A stretch of 64,000 bases of DNA from Sipunculus nudus (Eukaryota; Annelida; Sipuncula; Golfingiida; Sipunculidae). Where the stretch lies: positions 77,360,124 to 77,424,123 of the forward strand of contig CM049308.1 in assembly GCA_026874595.1 (NCBI GenBank). The letters are read 5' to 3'. The notes beneath the pieces were generated by a model, which saw nothing but the letters and a program-made list of their open reading frames with translations, made no database searches and was not told the DNA's origin. The stretch's first letter is position 1. The number at the start of each line of letters is the position of its first letter. Position numbers and translations under genes: made by a program. This document shows, one piece after another, positions 1,688-63,731 of this stretch.

Positions 1688-1940
1688 CTATTTAGGAAAT
1701 AACCGGGATTGGAAAGTAGGACATACTGGGCTTCTCACGGGCGGAGATGAAAGTCCCGGGCTCACAGATTCTGTGACCTCTGATTGGTCAGTTTCAACGT
1801 CCAGTTCTTCACAATCGGATGAGTCGGAGTCTCTCAGGAATCCACTTGTGTCTCCCCTTCCCGGTGACGTCATACTTTCGTCAGAACTTGTAGGACTTAG
1901 TTGTGACTGGTCATGGCCGCCCTGTCGGCTTTGGCACAGT
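1688..1940 (-). CDS. Six3/6 homeobox gene A, coding exon 2 (C-terminal tail)
   Basis: This exon encodes residues 218-301 of gene A. The acceptor reads CATTTCAG then A on the minus strand (AG at 1941-1942). The single A completes the split codon AG|A (Arg), and the next residue is Leu, giving KNRL as in vertebrate Six3/Six6 at the same place. The frame stays open for 83 codons to TAG at 1688-1690. The tail is Ser/Pro/acid-rich. Residues about 256-266 (SDSSDCEELDV) recall the SSDSECD(V/I) end of vertebrate Six3/Six6, but here 35 further residues follow, ending LFPK. Exon choice rests on matching phase, KNRL continuity and acidic tail composition; a transcript would settle it. Confidence 0.88.
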
Positions 1941-3051
1941 CTGAAATGATGATTTTAATTGATAATCCCACATTGTTTTATAAATAAAAATGTCGTGTAT
2001 TTTCATATATATTCATATATGTTCATATATTCATTAGGTACATATTTTCCATATTTCTTAAAAAAAAAGTGAAAAAAAAAATTTATAATAATTGAATATG
2101 TCCAATGAAATATTTTATATTTTATTTTGTATATTTTTTATCTGAGAAAAATTGGGATATGGTATGCTCCAATGGTCTCATCGAATCGTTATAAAAGTTA
2201 GCATGTAAAGTGTTCCAGAAATTCAAATCAAAGGCATATTATGGTTACAAGTAGTGAAAATCAAGCAAAAATTATAATCGTAACCTATATAGATATATAA
2301 ATATAAACCACAAATTGTGGTGGAAATGACAAAATGTTGATATTTTGGGTATTGTCATGTTTGTCGTAAGGGAGGGGGTTAACAGGGAGGGGGGGGGTTC
2401 TTCCTGTGGATTGCTCCCATCAAACAAGCAAACAAAGCCTCTGGAACAAGTGAATGTGATATTGTAATGTTATACCCTATAGCACAATTTGTTGTACAGA
2501 AAGATTCATGTATATCCAATTCACATGGTATTAATTAGAATATATTTACTAGTTCCGTCCATTTAGTTACGTATTTAAGGAAATCTTGAAATGAAACCTC
2601 TCTCACGCTGCTTTAAGTACACTTGCCCAGGCATTGACCGACTGATATCTTATTGTTGATATTATGTGACATTTTTTTCAGTATCATTACTATTATCATT
2701 ACACAAATGCTTTTATTAAACATGATAAAGAGAGATATCAGCTTTGTAATAATCAGCTATTATCATCACAACAATCAAAATTTCTTATGCTGAAGACACA
2801 ACATATTTTTATCGTCAATACATAGCCTTAATGTAATTAACACGCTCAACTGCTAATAATTAAAAGTGACATTATAATCTGTAACGTGATAGCCTCTATG
2901 TGTTTAGTGCATGTTTTTGTATCCAGCGATAACATTGGATCTCAGCAAAGCTGACGACACTGTGGTTACATTGCATCATGGAAGCTAAGTGTAAATGGGA
3001 ACTGTAGATCTGTGTGCGCATGTGCACAAATATAGACTGAAATATACACAC

Positions 3052-3055
<4 letters not shown>

Positions 3056-3107
<52 letters not shown>

Positions 3108-3115
3108 GTGTGTGT
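3056..3115. repeat. (TA)n microsatellite running into (TG)n
   Basis: About 50 bp of alternating TA with one G interruption, followed by TGTGTGTGTG. Confidence 0.95.
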
Positions 3116-5167
3116 GTATTTACTAGATTTACTCTTCCATATTCAACATATGATACATAAGAAGCATATCTTGAGAAAAAAACTATATACATGTGAAGTG
3201 AACGTATATAATATTTCATTATATATACGCACATACAGAGATATATATGAGGGGAGTACAAATCGATTCTCGATATATACTACCAATTTCCCCCGGCAGT
3301 AAGGAAAACATTCCGGTGTTAAAAGCCGTTGTATGGACTATTACGTATACGATACGTGTCTACAACGCTATGATATACCCGGCTGAGATCTAGAACACAG
3401 GAATGTGTACACAGCACTTACGCAATAAAGGTGTACAATGAGCTATCATGCAGTTAAAGTGATCAGATACTTGGCGGTTATACTCCCCATTAAGCCTGTG
3501 TACAGAAAAGCCAACTCAGGACTGATCATTACATGCAAGGGCTTTGACATTCATAGAGATCAATAGGTTTGCAGTACAGTGTGTTTATTAAATTAACTTG
3601 CAGGCCAGTTGTGAGATGGCGTAACATTGTGCAAAGCTAAATCCAGAAGCAAATTTGCGTCTAGTTGGCGAGCATATTAAGCGAAAAAGTGAATGGCTGC
3701 CTATATTTCGACAGATTTCTTATTTCCTTGGATACGCTATAAAGCCCCGGGATATTTTTTCTGTGTAATGAGAAAATAGTGGCGCCATCATTGTAGTCCA
3801 CTTGAGTGTTCTCTGTCTCTGCCTGGCTAACCGAGAGAGAACAAAAAACAAACAATTCTCCCTGTATGATTGTCGCTGAAAATTAATCTCTCTCTTATCC
3901 TAGTCGGAGGCCAATGTTTTACTCCAGTTTTTGCAAGAAATCTTTGACAAGGGCGACAATGATATCGACTAAAATAATCCAAACTTTGTGATAAGAGCCT
4001 AAAATAAGTATATACAAGTAATATTCCTTCGAGTAATATATCATTCATCCCGGTTCTTATATATATTTATACAAGACAGTATAGATCTCAGTGTATATTG
4101 ATGAAACAAGCTACAGAAACGTTCTGTTATGTTGCAATCAGGTTTTGGGTATATGTTTTTAGTCCCCAAGCAGTTTATAACATGAGAACCTTTTGTTTAT
4201 CCGGGGAAACAATCTTATCTGATAAAATATCCAAAATAAAACTCCACAATAGCATAATCTTTACAGCAAGTGGTCTAATGGAATGTCGTTTTTGATATAA
4301 TACAGATTATCACAGTTACCATAAACATTGGGTTTACTCAGTCTCGCAAATCCTAAGCCGGGCGGCGCCATCTTGATTACCATAAATTAACAACCAAATT
4401 GTGGTTTTGCATAATCTAATGCAAGTCTCAAACATTCGAGCAAATATTAATAATTAGCGCTTAAATTTATCGAACATTCGCATTATTTTTAATCTTTTTT
4501 TTTGGTATTTCGATTTTGTAAAAAAATGGACATTCCTATTATTTAACAAAATTATGATGAATGATTAAAATGATTATTAAATATTATGTAAGTCCTGTTT
4601 AACAATGAATACATACATATGAACCACTACTTATGTATGTATCATTCAATCCTTTTTTTACATATAAGAATAGAAATAATTTGTACGTCACCTTTTTATG
4701 AAAAATGTAATAATCTGTCATGTACAATAAGCTTTAGAATTGTATATGTTATGAATAAATGAATGAGAAAAATTAATCCTGTTGAGCGATTACGTTATTC
4801 ATATTTATATAGTTATACTGTGCAAGGGATATATGCATGGACAGAGAGTCAGTGCATGACAGAGAGTCAGGCAGGCAGAGAGAAAGACAGAAAAATTGAG
4901 AAAAGTTGTTCTTTATATTAACAGACTGATCCAGTCCGTAATACCAATTTTTTGTAGATGGATTATTTAAAAAAAAAAACATGCTTACATTGCTTTAAAA
5001 TAAATGTAGACTTCTAGTTTTTATGAGAAGACATCTCTTTGTGTTAGTAATTACGTGTAAGTATTATTGTATCGTAAACAATAAATCAATATAATCCTGT
5101 ATGTTTTACGTTTTATTATATAAAAAGTAAACTATTTACGTTTAGAATTACCTAGTATAATTTCAGT

Positions 5168-5172
5168 ATATA

Positions 5173-5240
<68 letters not shown>
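5168..5240. repeat. (TA)n microsatellite
   Basis: Over 60 bp of TA dinucleotide repeat with an early GTG interruption. Self-complementary. Confidence 0.95.
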
Positions 5241-5242
<2 letters not shown>

Positions 5243-7869
5243 TGTGTCATGACAATAATGACACTTGAGGCTGATGGTTACATGCGTGTCAGAGCATTGA
5301 GTCTCATTCTTCTAAACCTGGGTCCACTCAGCCGGGAGTTATGTAGTCGGACTATTGTCGTAAAGTGAGTCTTCGCGCCTCCTTTACATCGCGAGAGCCT
5401 GCCTCATAATGGCCCCAGAACGCTGTGACGAATTGTATAAATCCCCCGGTGACAATATATGTACCGGTTTTTATAGGACATTGTTGTTAGCCGGACTTAA
5501 TGGTCCCTCCCAACATAACGTTATATCAGCAGTCAGAGTTTTTTATATATAAACTCCATGCATGCTTTCTTACAATACGCGCACTTGAATAGCTTGTCAA
5601 TACAACATTGCAGGATATGAAATCATTTTCTTTTAGGTTATCCCCGCAGGACATATCCTCAGTACTGAGAAATCTCCCTATTCTAAGTTTCAAAACATTT
5701 CTTCTTGAAGGCTACCATGAATAATTTAGACGGACTTTTATCAACCGGTCTCGGTTATCAAAATGTATATCTATAAGGGTGTGTAAATTCGGCATAATTT
5801 CTTCTGTTATTAATTTATATTTATGGAATGTTCATGTTTCATCCAATGTTATTTTACCCATAAAAGTTTCCATACAATATTAAGCAATATATTTTTTTGG
5901 AAGAACTATCCGCCCCCCCCCCCCCCAAATTTATAACTTACAATAATTTCCTAACCCTGGTGTAATGATACATGTGATCGCTGTGCAACACTCAATATAT
6001 ACAGTTTCCTTCAATATATAAGCAAGTTTGCATTTAAAAGTCATCCAAAGATAAATTTAACAGTGACGCTTAACAAAGTTTTACATCTTTTCTTCCATTC
6101 GTCAGTTTTATTACTTTTTAAGGTATTAAATGTCATTTCATTCAAAAGGCTATCATTACTTTTTTTAAATAACTTATGAAAAAAACATGAAACGATATAT
6201 ATATTTTTGTTAAAGATACGTGATCATTTTGTTACACATTTAGATACTGAAGTTAAATCCAAAATATATATTAAGAATATCAGATTTCTCCATTGTACTT
6301 TAATGTCAATAATATTCCTGACTGTCACGAGTCAATGAATTAACTTAGCGATGAGATTGATATTAAAGATTTCTGCTTTTGCTTTAAAATCATGAAAACG
6401 TCGCACATTATAAATTGTACTATATATAGAATCATATACTAATTACTGCATTAGATGGAAAACATCTGTCATATAGTCGCTGTAATATGAGCAAGTGTAA
6501 CGGAATATATGTTCCTGTATCCGTATTATACAATGTATAAAAGAAACCGGTACACACACACACACACGTATACACACACGTAAACACACACATATATATA
6601 TATTTATATATATATATGTATTAAACTACTCCTTCTTTAATCCATTTGAAATTTAATCAAGTAAGTGTAGCAATTTTTAAAATATATCATTTTATGAAAT
6701 CCATCTAAACAAAAAGGAATCTGTATTTGCCCATTTCATAAAATTAAATTTTAACTTTGAAATCGGCAAAAGATCTGGACGCAGAATTCAGTATAATGTC
6801 CCAGTGTATTTTTAAACATTAAAATAAAACAATTTATGTCATCTACATAAATTTTTGCTTGATATATAAATAATAAGTACCGGTACCCAACCCATGAAAA
6901 TAAACATTGGATTTATCCTAATTAAGGTTCCAGAACTGCCTCATGAGCATGTGTATATAAGCATGTAGTTTCGGTTTATCCTTAATATTTACCCCTTGAC
7001 AATTAATATAGTAGTGAATAGGAGAATGTACATTCTATGTTGGTATATAAAAACTTTTAATTTATGTAAGCTAAAATTTTATTTATATTTTAAAATATTT
7101 TAATTTCAAATATTTGACTAAAAATCCTTCATTTTTGCAGAATATCTCTTAGCATTATGTTAAAAAAATAGGTAAATAGGCCCAGACTATTTTATTTGGG
7201 ATGTTAACTCTTAACAATCATGATTTTATTGAGTATTTAAGTTTTGCAAAAACAATGTTTATTTTCATTTATAAAAGACTTCTCATTAAAGATGGACAAA
7301 TAAATTTACATTAAGCACTTTAGGAAGCCTATAGGGAGAATGAATTTTTTAAACATAAATGGCTGAGTAATATCGATTAAAAGTTGACATATGTAAAAAG
7401 TAAAAAAAAAGTTAATATCTTTAAAAATCAACCAGATATGGGAACTCCCAATGTTTTCACGTACCACGTAACACAGATTTTTTTAAATGCTTAGAGAATA
7501 TTTTAAAAAATGCATATGTCAAGTGATCTTATAAAACAATAGTTTAGCTGACTTTAAGGTAAAACTGACACATGTGCAATATGTATATAAATACTCCCGA
7601 GACCTTAATTTAAATGAGTTAATCATAAGCCATAAACTATTTTAAAATACCACCATAACAGTATTGACGTATTACATTATGAGCTGAAGCTTACATACAT
7701 TCATGCCAATTTGCCAAAAGAAATAAATCATAACAAGATTTATGACGTCATAATTATCTCCCTATATTTATCAAATCAGTGTGACTCCAGCTGAACGAAA
7801 AAATACATATAATTGCTCAAATTGAAACAGAGCCATACTGGTGTAATATCAAGCTGTAATTAAGTTTTA

Positions 7870-8060
7870 TTACACAGCCATTAACTGAGGAATGTCCCAG
7901 GACCAGCTTCCCTCAATCTACAGTCCATGGAGCCGCGCTCATTTTCTCTAATTGGCCCACTTTCACTGATCATTTGCTCTTCAGCAATTGTAGATGGAGA
8001 CATAATGGTAATGGAGAGGTAATGTATTAACAATTACGTTACAGCCTTTCGGCCAAGAAT
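7870..8060. promoter_or_regulatory. candidate intronic enhancer of gene A
   Basis: A compact GC-richer, repeat-free block inside the gene A intron. It is dense in homeodomain core sites: CATTAACTG, CTAATTGG, ATAATGGTAATGG, TAATGTATTAAC and CAATTACG lie within about 170 bp. No reading frame is supported. The enhancer role is inferred from motif density and position in a developmental gene intron. Confidence 0.4.
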
Positions 8061-8140
8061 GAAAATTAACCAATTGAGCTCTTTTATTCGATAATTTACA
8101 CAACCGTTTGTATAGCTTATATAGAGGAATAATATATATA

Positions 8141-8207
8141 ATATTATATTATATTATATTATATTATATTATATTATATTATATTATATTATATTATATT
8201 ATATATT

Positions 8208-8245
<38 letters not shown>

Positions 8246-8250
8246 AAGAG
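8141..8250. repeat. compound (ATATT)n-(AT)n-(AG)n microsatellite
   Basis: About 13 copies of the pentamer ATATT (8141-8205), then (AT)n, then (AG)n ending near 8250. Confidence 0.95.
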
Positions 8251-8885
8251 GGGGGAAGCCTTATTATATCAATATAAACTTTTCTTTGTTATTTCAATAA
8301 TGCTCCATTTTGTTAAAATTATTAATTACTTTGATATTATATAATATATATATGGAGCAAAGTCCCTCTATATATACATCACCTATTGCCTATTAAACTT
8401 TCAACAAAATCATATAATGATAAATTTTATAATATCATAAACTAAAATCTAACCTATGAAAGTTATATATATATACATATTAAGGACTGCGATCATGATC
8501 GTTTACTGTGGCTTTGATATTTCAAACATAACCCAATGAAATAATGTGATACAATGGAAGAAATTGACTAATTTATAACCTGTCATTAAAGCGGTAATAC
8601 AGGATGAACATCACATTCAAAACCTGTAAATATTATTTACAAAATGTATCAATTATGTAATACATTGTCATATAATGGCAAAAAAGTAAATTATTACTTG
8701 GTAACATGCTTTTATATATACATATTGCATGTATGAGTCATTTTTATTAGTATATCTTTTTCACATTATTGTCCAGCATATATGAATTTGTGAAATCCAG
8801 TTTCAGTCAGTCAGTTAAGAATATTCCCTTCTACATCGTCCGTTATTGTACAAGTTCTGTACGTTTGTTTATTTGCTGCCCTTAC

Positions 8886-9538
8886 CTGTTTTTGGTCGCT
8901 GCAGCTCTGTCCCTCTGCCGTCGGTTCTTGAACCAGTTTCCTACTTGTGTGGGGGTGAGACCCGTGGCCTGGGCCAGCTCCCGTTTCTTGCTGGGGTTGG
9001 GGTATGGGTCTTGTAGGTACCATTCCCTCAGTAGTGACCGGGTGCGCTCCTTGAAGCAGTGAGTCTTCTGTTCGCCGTCCCATATTGTGCGGGGCAGGGG
9101 GAACTTCTTACGCACCCTGTACTTGTCCACTGGTCCCAGGGGTCGCCCCCGGAGTCTCTCTGCTTCTTGGTAGTGCGCCTCCAGCCACATGGCTTGAAGC
9201 TTCGTATGAGAGTCTTTAGCAAATCGGTGATTCTCTAAGATATGGTACAAGTCCTTAAAGTTACCTGTGTGGAAAGCCACCAACGCCCGTGCTTTGAGGA
9301 CGGACTCATGTTTATTTAGAGCTTCGCAGGCCGCAGGATTAACAGGTAGCGACCACAGAAATCGTCCAAGTCTTTCTATGTCCCCACTTTCTTCCAGTGT
9401 CTCACAGACCTGTGCCACCTGCTGGGGGGTGAAGCTTAACATTGGGAGGGGCAGCATGGGCATTTTCCACATGCTTGAGGGGTCGGGTTTGACACCCCAA
9501 AGCCCCGACAAATCTAACACTGGCCAACCTTTCTGCAT
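8886..9538 (-). CDS. Six3/6 homeobox gene A, coding exon 1 (SIX domain + homeodomain)
   Basis: A sine oculis/Optix-class transcription factor of the Six3/6 group, expected to act in the nucleus in anterior head and eye patterning, often as a repressor with Groucho. The exon gives residues 1-217 plus two bases of codon 218. The SIX domain runs about 35-154 and the homeodomain about 155-214, with W48, F49, K50, N51 in the recognition helix (NWFKNRRQR). The block [19 protein letters not shown] before the homeodomain is diagnostic of Six3/6 and essentially invariant. The start ATG at 9536-9538 is the first in frame after an upstream stop at 9581-9583. Later Met codons (residues 23, 25, 28, 33) are alternatives, and vertebrate SIX6 starts close to the SIX domain. 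The donor CAG|GTAAGG follows base 8886 and the intron is phase 2. Exon 1 plus exon 2 total 906 nt, 301 aa. Confidence 0.97.
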
Positions 9539-44660: not shown

Positions 44661-46622
44661 CCGTTATTTTGTATGCTTTAGTTAAAAAATACTTGGTTAA
44701 AATAAAGGTAGATTTTACTGTTTATATATTGACTTTGCAAAAGCGTTTGATTGTGTACAACATAATTTATTGTGGCATGTTTTATTAAAACAAGGCATAA
44801 ATGGTAAAATATTACGTGTTATAAAATCAATGTATTCAAAAATGCAGTCTTGTATATTAACTGAGAGTGGACTTACAGATTATTTTGCATGTTCGGTAGG
44901 TACCCGGCAAGGTTGTATGATAAGTCCTTTATTATTTTCTTTATTTATTAATGAGTATTGTAACATGTTAGATGGAAGCGATTGTCAAGGGATATATGTA
45001 AATGGTAATCTCTCAAATTTAATGACATTGTTATTTGCAGATGATATGGTTAATTGTGGAGATACTGTAGGTAGACTTCAGCAACAGATTGATCTCTTAC
45101 AAAAGTTTTGTGAAAATTATGCATGGTTTCAAAATTAATACAGATAAAACTAAGATTATAATTTTTAGGAAAGGTGGTCCCTTACGAAAAGTAGAAATAT
45201 GATATTTAAAAAGTAAACAGTTAGAAGTGGTTCCATACTACAAATATCTTGGTATTATTTTCTCCACAAAATTGTCTTGGTCAAAAAAACAACAACAGCA
45301 GGTTTTACAAGCAAACAAAGCTGTATGCATGATTAAAACATTCAGCAAAAAGTGTAAATATGTAAGTACAAAACATCTCTTTTATTTGTTTGATCAAAAG
45401 GTAGTGCCAATACTAACATATGGATGTGAGTTGTGGGGTTTTAAAAAATCTGAAACTTTAGAGAGAGTACAGTACAAATTCTGCAAACACATTTTAAATG
45501 TAGGTCAGAATACTCCAAATGCAGCAGCATTAGGAGAATGTGGCAGATTTCCTTTGTTTGTAACTTGCTTATTGCGTTGTATTAAGTATTGGGTTAAACT
45601 TTTAATTGCATATGCCAGAACATAGATATCAGAAACATGTGTACAATATGTTGATGAATTTACAACAGTGGTAAATCAAATTGGGTATCTCAAGTAAGAA
45701 CGTTGTTCCAGTCTGGTTTTGGATATGTTTGGATGGCACAATACATTGGAGATGTTAATTATTTTATGAAAGAAGTTGAAATGAGAATAAAAGATATGGC
45801 CATTCAAAATTGGCATGGTGATATTGAATTGTGCAGTAAACTCTTCTATTATGGTACTTTTAAATCTATGCTCACGCTAGAAAAATATGTTGATTGTATC
45901 CCAAATATAAACAACACCGTACAGCACTTGCTAAACTTCGATGTTCAAATCATGAATTAGCTATATATAGAAATCGGCCGCCATAAAAACATTTCTCGTG
46001 AAGAAAGGATCTGTAAATATTGTTTATGCTATGGATTCAATATTGTTGAGGATGAAGCACACTTTATGCAAGAGTGTAAATTATATATCACGATTTGAGG
46101 TTAAAATATATATTAGACAAGACTTGCATTATCCAAGTGAACAAAATTTTATAAAATTATTTAATTTAGATAATCCATTCGAAATATAAAAAGTTGCTGC
46201 ATATGTGTTTAATTCGTTTTTGAGGAGACGGAAAATGATAGATGGTTGAATTATGTATTTTAAACAGTACTCACTGTTGACGGCACAATAGATTCATTGT
46301 GTACTTAGGTGTGTAATAATGTTACATGTGTTTATGGCACGATTGATTAGTCATTACTTAACATTATATATATTGTTGTAATTTTTTAACTGACTGTTTA
46401 TTGAAGTGTAATTATGTTTATCCTCACAGATGATGGCAAAACAGATTTATATGTATGTAGGTATGCAGTTCTGTTACTTGTGTTAATGGCAGTGTTTACT
46501 AGAAAATATAAGACTGCTACCTTCCATTGGATTGATGTACTTGTTTAAATTGAATATTTATTGAAATGTTTGGAACTTTGGGCCTGAGGCCTTTTTCCTG
46601 AATAAAGTCCTGTTCTGTTCTG
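44661..46622 (+). mobile_element. 5'-truncated non-LTR retrotransposon (Nimb/Jockey-like)
   Basis: About 1.96 kb between 49-bp direct repeats. It holds the end of a reverse transcriptase, its C-terminal zinc-binding segment, a ~500-bp 3' UTR, AATAAA at 46601-46606 and a terminal TGTTCTGTTCTG. The AATAAAG-(TGTTC)n end and the protein layout match I/Jockey-group elements common in molluscs; the exact clade is my judgement. The missing 5' part (endonuclease, ORF1) is typical truncation during target-primed reverse transcription. Confidence 0.85.
44701..46098 (+). pseudogene. reverse transcriptase pseudogene of the non-LTR element
   Basis: Fragments in order: YIDFAKAFD (RT motif A, near 44724), GTRQGCMISPLLF (motif B, near 44899) and LLFADDMV (motif C, near 45029); the thumb region YKYLGIIFSTKLSW (near 45239); PILTYGCELWG (near 45408); a linker with SGFGYVWMAQYIGD (near 45712); and a C-terminal zinc-binding piece, CKYC...H....C (45970-46098). 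The frame is broken by a shift near 45120, a TGA at 45200-45202, a stop at 45623-45625 and a further shift near 45965. It is inactive, and several independent breaks point to an old copy. Confidence 0.9.
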
Positions 46623-58971: not shown

Positions 58972-59546
58972 ATGATGTTTGCGTTCCCCATGTTAAGCTT
59001 CACGCCCCAGCAAGTGGCACAGGTTTGTGAGACGCTGGAAGAAAGTGGGGACATAGAAAGACTTGGACGATTCTTGTGGTCGCTGCCTGTCAACCCTGCG
59101 GCTTGCGAGGCCCTCAACAAACATGAGTCCGTCCTGAGGGCTCGGTCACTCGTGGCTTTCCACACAGGTAATTTTAAGGACTTGTACCATATCATAGAGA
59201 GCCACCGTTTTACTAAAGAGTCACATACGAAGCTTCAAGCCATGTGGCTGGAGGCGCACTACCAAGAAGCAGAGAGACTCCGGGGCCGACCCCTGGGACC
59301 AGTGGACAAGTACAGGGTGCGTAAGAAGTTCCCCCTGCCCCGCACAATATGGGACGGCGAACAGAAGACTCACTGCTTCAAGGAGCGCACCCGGTCACTA
59401 CTGAGGGAATGGTACCTACAAGACCCTTACCCCAACCCCAGCAAGAAAAGGGAGCTGGCCCAGGCCACGGGTCTCACCCCTACACAAGTAGGAAACTGGT
59501 TCAAGAACCGACGGCAGAGGGACAGAGCTGCAGCGACCAAAAACAG
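58972..59546 (+). CDS. Six3/6 homeobox gene B, coding exon 1 (SIX domain + homeodomain)
   Basis: Second Six3/6 (Optix-class) transcription factor, divergent to gene A. Encodes residues 1-191 plus two bases of codon 192. It starts [10 protein letters not shown], close to the short N-terminus of vertebrate SIX6; the ATG at 58972 is the first after an in-frame stop 12 bases upstream. SIX domain about 9-128, homeodomain about 129-188 with W48 F49 K50 N51. It differs from gene A at only 6 of the 187 shared residues, all in the first 78 positions from the common MLSF. The donor is ACAG|GTAGAG after 59546, phase 2, and read-through would stop at once (AGG TAG). With exon 2 the coding length is 861 nt, 286 aa. 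Confidence 0.97.
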
Positions 59547-59574
59547 GTAGAGGCAACATATATTCTCCCATATC

Positions 59575-59576
<2 letters not shown>

Positions 59577-59641
<65 letters not shown>
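59577..59641. repeat. (TA)n microsatellite next to the gene B splice donor
   Basis: About 32 TA units. Self-complementary in RNA. Confidence 0.95.
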
Positions 59642-59644
<3 letters not shown>

Positions 59645-60851
59645 GTCTTTTAACCTGTGTAAGCATCATATAATAGGATGTGTACTTTGCATTAGCTGCA
59701 TGCAATAGCGAACCACAGAAGCCGGCTGAGGGACACGTATTTGCTTGCCTGTTATTTAGAGGTACGATTATGGACTCAAGGCGTCAGAAACAATAACCTC
59801 ATACAATCGTGCAGTGTAATAAAAAATAAATAAATTTATTTGCATTTGCTATTCAACACTTGTACAGGTATTGTTTTAAATACATTAGTGGCATGGGCCA
59901 ACAGAACCGGCAGGGACACTTCTTGCTATATATTCCTTAAGTTTAAGTACATTTGCAACCACTTGTTCACGTAATTATCTCCCTTTGAAGCCAGGGATTG
60001 GAGGTTTGGACATATCTTTTGCCACGGTAGAAATACCAACAAACAATATACATAAATGTACAATTTTGTCATACCTTCCTTTAAGTTATTACTGCATGTA
60101 TACAAAAGAATCACTTGTGTAAGGACGTTCAGGATTAACTACAATTTGTCTTCTCCGTGAAAACACGTTTGACTCGTACACGAGCGAATCACCACATGTG
60201 GTGTGATAAAGTGCAAGAGTGCACATGCAGTGCATTGGTGCTGGGTATAAGAAAACTATGTTATCAAATTTCTGAACTCGCTATGCGAAGTGGCATCACT
60301 AAAAGCTCTCATTAACGGGATTTTTTTTTATTATTTTACTTTGAAGCTAACTCCAGTTCAAGCAACTGCATTATCTAATATGAAAGAACACACGCAATGC
60401 TATTAATTACATAATGCGAAAATTTATTTTTTTTTTATCAGAAATAAAATACGAAAGAGCAACGAAGGTGTTATTAATACATTTTTCTAATCTTTAAACT
60501 TTGTGTCAATTTTTTTTCAATCATTTACAATATTATAATTCAGGTATTGCACAAGCATCTTTAATTAAATCCACCCCAGTAAAAGAATAAATTTTAAATC
60601 TGTATAAACTACATATAAACTATATATCTATCTTGCATTTACCATTTGTATGTTGGTTTTCTACGGAAGAGTTTGATCAGAATTTAATTATATGTATATT
60701 TTAAAATAAAGTGCTCTTCCTTTAATTCGATTTGTATTCCATGATTGATTTGTAAAGTTCGTTTATATTTTGAAGTACTTTTGTACATTCGGCTGTGCCA
60801 GTAATGTAAAGAAAGGCTTAACGCGTTGCATTATCAGAATGAACAATTCAA

Positions 60852-60956
<105 letters not shown>

Positions 60957-61476
60957 GTGCACGAAATGGATATTTTATTAGTTCAAGATTTCGTTCATAT
61001 AAATATCTTATATTTGCATATTATCAAATTTGGTTTTGAAAGAATGACAGACCCTATAAACGTAATTTAAAATTACGAAGATTCATCTCAAACCTCAAAT
61101 GTAAAATATACATTTAATGTTTTCTATTCTATTAGTATATATATACGTATGTCGTTTTATCCAATTGCAAAATATGCAAATTGTATAATTAAGGAACTAA
61201 CAAGTGCATGATCTGCAATTTTTATATACGAATGCATGCAAATTGTACATTTGGACACTTATCTGTATTTGTTGATATATTAAGACAATATTTTTCTAAA
61301 TACAGTTCTTTTGCACCAAACTTTTGAGATATATAACATTAGTATTTAGAGTTATATAGTATATATATACATCTAATATGCACACATACTTTTATATTCC
61401 CTGTCAAAGAATACCTGCAAAGTATCTTCTCACACTCTGAAAGAATTTTAAAAATTCTCATTGGTGAATATGAATC

Positions 61477-61479
<3 letters not shown>

Positions 61480-61536
<57 letters not shown>
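61480..61536. repeat. (TA)n microsatellite
   Basis: About 28 TA units. Confidence 0.95.
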
Positions 61537-61538
<2 letters not shown>

Positions 61539-62261
61539 GAACTGGAAACAAGCTATATAGCGAAATTCAAAGGGAAGCGCATGCGTTTGTTTCTCCATTT
61601 GTCTTCAAGCAATTACCATTGCAATTAAATACGTCTTATATCTAAATTATAACCTCTTATAAAAGGATTAAATGCAATAGATTATATGTATACCTGTTTC
61701 GCTTCTTTCTCACGTTATTTATGACAACTATATATATAATACCCCAGGGTTTCATTATTATACATGCACAACTGTCAAAAGTGTAACAAGCACTATATAT
61801 ATAAATGTATATAACTATATATAAAATTATATATATATAAATATATATATTTATATATACTTGAGACTGACTTTTGGACGCACCTGCATACATGCATGTG
61901 CAGGGTTTTGGCGTCTTGATATAATGACGTTTGTCCGCTTCAATGCCATATTATAACAATCGTATATAGGTATAGCTACAAGAACATAAGTGTTGTATAT
62001 ATATTGAACGGAAGCATATTAAATTAAACATATAACATTTGATAATTAACCTCTTGTCAAAACTTATTTTTTTCGCTCCCAAACACGAATAATTAACATT
62101 TTTGTGTGATTTTATGATTTTTTTATAATTAATTATTATCGTCATATATATCAGCTTCTGTAAAGCAACACAAATTATATGGAATGATTACCATGTATAT
62201 ATATATATATATATATTATTTCCGTAGCTGTTCCATGTATGTTTTGAAAGCTCGCTGCACG

Positions 62262-62315
<54 letters not shown>

Positions 62316-62946
62316 TTGATGATGTATATGTGGTTTAGCACCCAGAGTGTAAATAAGTAGTGTTTTCTTCTTAAACTTGTCAGAGCAGAATATTTTCCTC
62401 CAACGGAAAAAATGTGATCTGTTTTGTGTTATTTATTTTTTCGATCGGTCATCAAATAAATTATGCAAAAACTTATTTCTTCCAAATCGATTTTTTTATT
62501 TTGTTTATTGAATTTGTGTAGATTTCCCATTTGACCCATTGCTGTGTAAAATATGCTATGCAATCTACCGTGCTGTCCAAAGTCCAAATTATTAGGTATA
62601 CCACGTTGTTTTATGTCTCAACATATACGTAACGTACAAAAATGCTAACATATATACATTTTGTATATATAGTGTATATGATAACACTTTCTCACAAATA
62701 GAATTTATTTTAAAATATGTTTTTGCTCCTTTTTTTGCGACTTAATTATAGGACACTGAAGTTTAAACTTGCATGCAAATACAACATTTTATCATTTTTT
62801 TAAATAATTCTGTTATAAACGTACATTTGAAAGCACAAAAAATGGCCGGTAAAGCAGGTTACATTCATGTCATATTGAAACTTAAAAACTAAAACTTTAA
62901 ACTAAAACTTAAAAATTAAAACCTGTGCTCTCGCTCACCATACCTA

Positions 62947-62949
<3 letters not shown>

Positions 62950-63012
<63 letters not shown>
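62950..63012. repeat. (AT)n-(AG)n compound microsatellite
   Basis: About 15 AT units then about 16 AG units; the reverse complement of the (CT)n-(AT)n type. Confidence 0.95.
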
Positions 63013-63017
<5 letters not shown>

Positions 63018-63445
63018 AGAAAGAGATACAGATATATACATGATATTCAGTTTGCAGGTAAAACTTGCTTCAATAGCATCTATATAGTGCGATGTTATAA
63101 ATTCCAAATTTGGGATGAAAAATTCTTATTTATGTAGTGCTAACAGAATTTCTTCGGTGTTTTAGTTAAAACATGTTTCATATTATATTATAACGTCGGA
63201 ACTTACTTAAATTCCACTATGCTGACATCATGGGTCTGTTGCAATCAGGTGACTGAAGTCAGGGAGGTAAATTATAAGCCCATGGTCATCTTTATGTTAC
63301 TATTATAACATAGTTGTAACGATGGTGTTCAGGCCTGCCACTGGGCTTAGTCCTGGTTCAATGTTGTTACAATTAACAGAACCCATATTTAATATATTTT
63401 ATATTAAATATAACGTCAAACTTATACTTCATATCCGATTTTTAG

Positions 63446-63731
63446 GTACGGTGGTCAGTCGTACAAAAGAAGTCTGGATGACAGCCACGAAACAGATCCT
63501 GGGCAGACCAGTCCGTGTAGCTCCGACGGCGGACCCATTTCCGGTAAGATGCCGGAAGGTGCTACGTCATTGCACGATGACGATGACGTCATGTTAGATG
63601 ACTCCAGTGATGATGACCTTGACATTGATGTGGAATCTCCAGCGTCTACGATAAACGATGAACCAATAAATTTATCAGTAGGTGACAAAAGAAAAGACAC
63701 AAATTCAACAATCACGTCACCGAGACATTGA
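63446..63731 (+). CDS. Six3/6 homeobox gene B, coding exon 2 (C-terminal tail)
   Basis: Encodes residues 192-286. The acceptor is CCGATTTTTAG|G; that G completes AG|G (Arg), giving KNR then YGGQSYKRSLDD. Open for 94 codons to TGA at 63729-63731. The tail has an Asp-rich stretch (residues 236-253, including DDDD and SSDDDLDIDV), partly recalling the SSDSECD(V/I) end of vertebrate Six3/Six6, and then EPINLSVGDKRK. PINLS (residues 265-269, 63663-63677) resembles CtBP-binding PxDLS/PxNLS motifs. The tail shows no alignable similarity to gene A's beyond acidity. The exon call rests on phase, open frame length and tail composition; an alternative acceptor nearby is possible. Confidence 0.87.

Follow-up and report, generated by a model that had tools for sequence, protein, structure and literature searches.

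The second part of exon 1 is nearly identical at silent sites between two linked SIX-class homeobox genes of Sipunculus nudus, and recent interlocus gene conversion is probably the best explanation of this low-divergence tract. The genes lie in a 64-kb window, the whole stretch of DNA analysed here (C3:77360124-77424123 of the 1.43-Gb genome; positions below are counted from its first base), with gene A on the minus strand and gene B on the plus strand, head to head and divergently transcribed. Both have the Pfam SIX domain PF16878 followed by the homeodomain PF00046 (residues 4-118 and 128-179 of the exon 1 protein), as expected of the SIX class, and the top solved-structure match of the gene A/B protein was a SIX1 chimera. 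The Six3/6 (optix-type) label of A and B, like the Six1/2-, NK1-, Lhx-, Dlx-, Mnx- and Hox-like names used below, is our assumption from characteristic motifs; the name Msx and the SIX class rest on results of the analysis. A separate Six1/2-like gene is located on the same contig, 26 Mb from A and B. The exon 1 segments compared were as follows.

9442-8886, minus strand: gene A exon 1 from the shared ATG, 557 nt, starting ATGTTAAGC
58990-59546, plus strand: gene B exon 1 from the shared ATG, 557 nt, starting ATGTTAAGC
9209-9442, minus strand: diverged 5' part of exon 1 in gene A, from comparison with gene B
58990-59223, plus strand: diverged 5' part of exon 1 in gene B (codons 1-78), from comparison with gene A
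8886-9208, minus strand: partner low-divergence tract in gene A, from comparison with gene B
59224-59546, plus strand: tract of low divergence in gene B (from codon 79 to the last exon 1 base), from comparison with gene A

Divergence drops within exon 1

Between the two exon 1 sequences, nt 1-234 differ at 30 positions and nt 235-557 at 4. These counts agree with those of an earlier note on the same DNA, which had described most of the first differences (about 30) and all of the last four as synonymous. Twenty-three of the first 30 were synonymous and 7 non-synonymous, with 6 amino acids replaced, all within codons 50-77, and the four tract differences (B 59286, 59427, 59449 and 59481) were each synonymous. 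The Nei-Gojobori synonymous divergence (dS) was 0.658 in the 5' part compared with 0.055 in the tract, and the non-synonymous divergence (dN) was 0.040 compared with 0. Silent-informative codons differed at 20/70 in the 5' part and 4/102-103 in the tract (Fisher P = 6e-6), and four-fold degenerate sites at 12/31 and 3/51, respectively (P = 3e-4). A two-segment model of the silent codons placed the best change point at codon 79, with 1/20,000 permutations as extreme. The divergence step is genuine. The earlier note had placed the drop over the homeodomain; the homeodomain does lie inside the tract, but the tract is wider, starting at residue 79 within the SIX domain and comprising the last 40 residues of the SIX-domain match together with the homeodomain. 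Past the splice donor, 11 of the first 15 intron bases matched between A and B, the same count as in that note, and similarity was gone within about 15 bases.

When all differences were used, the left edge of the tract fell within nt 232-251 (2 log-likelihood units). Tests on silent codons revealed a contiguous run of identity between A and B beyond chance. With a mismatch penalty of 6 the best segment was codons 79-185 (1/10,000 permutations as good), and with a penalty of 3 it was codons 55-185 (19/10,000). The strictest form of the test, the longest perfect silent run, was modestly unusual (115/10,000 permutations).

Age of the duplication

The homology between A and B stops 5 bases upstream of the shared ATG. 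The features beyond exon 1 are listed here.

63446-63731, plus strand: gene B, predicted second exon including the stop codon and encoding the C-terminal tail; acceptor TTTTTAG, phase suiting the split codon AG/G
1688-1940, minus strand: gene A, predicted second exon including the stop codon; acceptor CATTTCAG, phase suiting AG/A
59547-63445, plus strand: intron of gene B, between exon 1 and predicted exon 2
1941-8885, minus strand: intron of gene A, between exon 1 and predicted exon 2
9448-58984, no strand: interval between the genes, 49.5 kb, bounded by the arms of inverted repeat I1 (8870-9447 and 58985-59562)

In both genes the phase of predicted exon 2 is the one demanded by the split arginine codon, and in gene B its open frame is 94 codons long. 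Beyond exon 1, alignment of A with B gave simple repeats only, with no homologous intron or flank. The 500-base 5' flanks and the intron starts aligned no better than shuffles (107/200 and 40/200 as good, respectively), and the predicted C-terminal tails displayed weak similarity (12/1000 shuffles as good), in keeping with the earlier claim that the tails diverged outside the tract. Because the introns, 5' flanks and tails have diverged, the Six3/6 duplication is old, with the paralogues older than the tract, and the anomaly is the low-divergence tract rather than the diverged 5' half. A recent duplication of A and B does not fit, since introns and 5' flanks are unalignable beyond simple repeats and the tails are barely alike. 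A cDNA-mediated exchange extending into exon 2 was not seen, because the tails differ.

Two further observations were made in the window. The predicted tail of gene B contains EPINLSV, which is absent from the predicted tail of gene A and which we take to resemble a CtBP-binding PxDLS-type motif; its presence in the B tail alone could reflect a division of function between the paralogues. Between genes A and B, at 44770-45138, lies a fragment of reverse transcriptase (RVT_1, E 2e-10).

Protein constraint and silent sites

The Six1/2-like gene was compared with the tract at 74 informative codons for the same residue. It used the same codon at 28 of these in A and 29 in B, and A and B shared the codon at 71 of the 74. 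Because Six1/2-like codons differ at shared residues, the residues do not dictate the tract codons. As an outgroup for the silent differences, the Six1/2-like gene was too saturated to tell donor from recipient, and a search for relatives by protein and by a degenerate SIX homeodomain pattern in the genome-contig and viral-contig collections found none.

The linked homeobox pairs of the same genome provided a second control. A homeodomain search gave 321 candidates, of which 150 were scored and 113 of the 150 compared; two of the 113 (L039 and L089) were retained despite a stop codon in the compared stretch. Outside one cluster on contig C10, 22 pairs were no more than 200 kb apart with at least 70% homeodomain identity, and 12 of the 22 reached at least 90%. 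Alignments of the flanks, over about 8 kb, covered 8 of these 12, namely the Six3/6, Msx, Mnx-like, NK1-like, Dlx-like and Lhx-like pairs, L050/L051 and the C2 prd-type pair L102/L111. Seven of the 12 differed at 31-72% of their silent codons, including two that are 98% identical in protein; one of the seven, L008/L009, we take to be two neighbouring Hox genes and not a late duplication. The NK1-like pair (inverted, 42 kb apart, homeodomain 98% identical) differed at 39/54 silent codons and the Lhx-like pair (inverted, 41 kb apart, 98%) at 29/44. In contrast, the Six3/6 homeodomains differed at 3/50 (Fisher P = 9e-13 compared with NK1-like and P = 5e-10 compared with Lhx-like). The Dlx-like pair differed at 13/42 and is not homogenised. 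Since seven of the 12 pairs differ so widely at silent codons, protein constraint does not freeze silent sites in this genome. The silent identity of A and B exceeds what protein constraint gives both by the Six1/2-like comparison and by the NK1-like and Lhx-like pairs, which bears out the earlier view that such constraint is insufficient.

Two of the 12 pairs had a low silent difference with alignable flanks and look simply recent. Three combined a low silent difference with flanks unalignable beyond repeats: Six3/6 (3/50), Msx (2/56) and Mnx-like (3/42). The C2 prd-type group and L127/L128 (genes L050/L051) were rejected as replicates, their flanks aligning as in a recent duplication, and so was the C10 cluster, whose near-identical homeodomains were compared without flanks.

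The Msx pair (L114/L115, at C1:51.79 and 51.83 Mb) is in direct orientation. Its tract of 228 bases carries 5 differences, all silent (dS 0.105), compared with 31 differences in the 78 bases of 3' coding sequence in the same open frame (dS about 2.4, 12 residues replaced; Fisher P = 4e-5 for silent codons). Divergence is abrupt on both sides, and on the 3' side the edge falls within the open frame. Msx is the best replicate of the Six3/6 pattern. The Mnx-like pair, also direct, has a homologous block of about 180 bases around one short exon, with 4 differences in the 141 bases of the exon and 16/20 intron bases matching past the donor. It may be regarded as a partial replicate, weaker than Msx in that a single short exon makes up the block and the match continues into the start of the intron.

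Nearby second copies, about 10-130 kb apart, were seen in many developmental homeobox families (Six3/6, Msx-, Mnx-, NK1-, Dlx- and Lhx-like and several prd-type), and some of the 22 linked pairs resemble neighbouring Hox genes. The C10 cluster (C10:12.55-12.66 Mb; L049, L054, L056-L059, L067, L070, L083 and L091) has near-identical homeodomains of an unfamiliar type (KRLRTQFTDEQVELLKEEY...), with many pairs at 0 silent differences and a relative, L047, 11 Mb away.

Gene conversion as the probable explanation of the tract

Conversion predicts just such a combination, a young tract set within an old duplication. The earlier note had proposed recent gene conversion between inverted copies, and the first part of this proposal is supported by the dS step, the diverged surroundings, the own-genome control and the repeat of the pattern at Msx. 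Genes A and B are indeed inverted, but inversion is neither essential (the Msx and Mnx-like pairs are direct) nor sufficient (no homogenisation is seen in the inverted NK1-like and Lhx-like pairs). In the proposed mechanism, one copy would suffer a double-strand break and be repaired by homologous recombination from the linked copy, with exon 1 as the sole block still similar enough for pairing because protein constraint keeps it alike. The repair would overwrite the sequence from about codon 79 through the rest of exon 1, leave the flanks unaltered and end where exon meets intron, since there is no intron homology to carry it further; the four silent differences, none of which alters a residue, would have arisen afterwards. 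With pairing limited to the constrained exon, the tract would coincide with the better-conserved protein segment without selection on silent sites.

Several observations weigh against conversion. The tract ends on the right at the splice donor and covers the better-conserved segment of the protein (identity to SIX1 of 79/108 on the right compared with 44/76 on the left). The edge had been called sharp, and with all differences it is, but from silent sites alone it could fall anywhere in codons 52-88. Silent differences are already sparse in codons 55-78 (3/20), which blurs the silent-site edge, and part of the sharpness of the step is due to four amino-acid changes in the same codons, directly before the edge. 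These codons also share the silent sites of the Six1/2-like gene at 10/12 in A and 9/12 in B; for A, the excess over the tract (28/74) gave P = 0.004 for a region picked post hoc, and the match may reflect chance or constraint on a small block. GC content at third codon positions (GC3) in gene A was 71/103 in the tract compared with 37/76 outside it (P = 0.008). In gene B the rise was not significant (70/103 compared with 43/76, P = 0.16), and GC3 in the Msx tract (0.57 and 0.58) was not high. The GC3 rise is a weak sign of GC-biased repair; codon bias could produce it too, so such repair cannot be regarded as established. Carson and Scherer required intron support to exclude purifying selection (PMC2720389), and the A/B introns give no support of that kind.

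The alternative that survives best is purifying selection on silent sites without any exchange, in which the 323 bases would also carry an exonic enhancer, a splicing signal or an mRNA signal. Exonic enhancers and synonymous constraint elements do exist (PMC4745165, PMC4014394), and both the match of the tract to the more conserved protein segment and its end at the donor are consistent with such selection. So is the conservation of codons 55-62 (VAFHxGNF; B 59152-59175, A 9280-9257), which, though outside the tract, are kept even in the Six1/2-like gene L003 (7/7 same-residue codons matching A and 6/7 matching B). We nevertheless consider selection of this kind unlikely. Only 4/102-103 silent-informative tract codons differ, the Six1/2-like silent sites are scrambled over the tract, the tract showed no RNA-fold excess (z = -0.33 in both copies), and an Rfam scan of it returned no family at the gathering threshold. 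Moreover, the same selection would need a separate origin in Msx, and perhaps in the Mnx-like pair, but not in the NK1-, Lhx- or Dlx-like pairs. Long-term constraint on silent sites thus appears weakened as an account of the tract. A splice-donor-like CAGGTAA was observed within the codon 55-62 stretch of both genes.

Two other explanations are much less probable. The tract might give the true, young age of the duplication, with the 5' half of one gene replaced from another diverged Six3/6 gene. Such a replacement would likewise yield a divergence step, but we regard it as very improbable: after a young duplication the introns and exon 2 should still be almost as similar as the tract, whereas these are unalignable or nearly so, and a DNA search of the genome with Six3/6 found three places, A, B and the Six1/2-like gene, although a very diverged third copy could escape it. 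An assembly artefact, in which reads of one copy built both, has a similarly slight chance of being correct, given that 4 positions distinguish the two tracts, that their flanks are dissimilar, that the contig is 98 Mb long and that the same pattern occurs at Msx on another contig. Dual coding, with a second protein in another frame fixing the silent sites, is scarcely credible. Other frames do contain open stretches in each gene (+2 frame, exon positions 209-412; +3 frame, from position 336 into the intron), but no single alternative frame is open throughout 235-557 in either gene on either strand.

With gene conversion as the preferred reading, the identity of the DNA-binding part in this old developmental gene pair appears to be maintained by exchange and not by selection alone, and a gene tree based on the homeobox would date the Six3/6 duplication far too young. 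Homogenised and non-homogenised pairs stand side by side in one genome, raising the question of why conversion affects some pairs but spares others that are just as close together and have almost the same protein conservation. More tentatively, the homeobox alone might be homogenised repeatedly in a subset of local duplicates (Six3/6, Msx and Mnx-like; 12-50 kb, direct or inverted) as tails and surroundings diverge, with selection or recombination keeping DNA-binding domains as a shared concerted unit alongside independent effector and control regions; we think this possible but doubtful.

Comparison with known systems

The engrailed and invected genes differ from the Six3/6 pair in being insect genes of another family, and were reportedly compared across species by Peel, Telford and Akam in 2006. 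Conversion or concerted evolution between these linked homeobox paralogues of hexapods is cited in two papers (PMC3199776, PMC10455198). A close likeness is to the Dlx pair of Capitella teleta, for which the authors infer gene conversion with a GENECONV tract of 150 bp. Like Six3/6, these are spiralian, inverted, linked homeobox duplicates with near-identical homeobox DNA and the rest diverged. Unlike Six3/6, they are arranged tail to tail and closely linked, and their tract enters the intron. The GC content of the Dlx tracts is not raised (PMC3199776).

Conversion has also been described or proposed in other developmental genes. In mammals, TPRX1/TPRX2 underwent repeated conversion, more in the homeobox-containing part than downstream; unlike Six3/6, they are fast-evolving PRD-class genes, and conversion was shown by phylogeny over many species (PMC8208926). 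The authors of a study of amphioxus Pax3/7a and Pax3/7b call gene conversion possible. That pair resembles Six3/6 in its identical DNA-binding domains, strong nucleotide conservation and diverged linkers and ends, but the conservation covers several domains, and the text compared gives no tract statistic (PMC6010424). Mammalian BMP8A/B, developmental genes in inverted arrangement at a distance of about 235 kb, also evolve in concert; in contrast to Six3/6, they are not homeobox genes, were chosen for intron similarity, and the case was shown across species (PMC2720389). Conversion was raised as a possibility for Capitella eve (PMC3359188), whereas the Drosophila ladybird pair showed no intergenic conversion (PMC3142176). 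Among the matches listed in a literature search, no title or abstract start concerned gene conversion in Six3/6; PMC4976893 and PMC2992049, which mention both six3 and gene conversion, were judged by title. Taken together, conversion in homeobox duplicates is already known; the Six3/6 pair adds a probable case, and the interesting part is recurrence within one genome.
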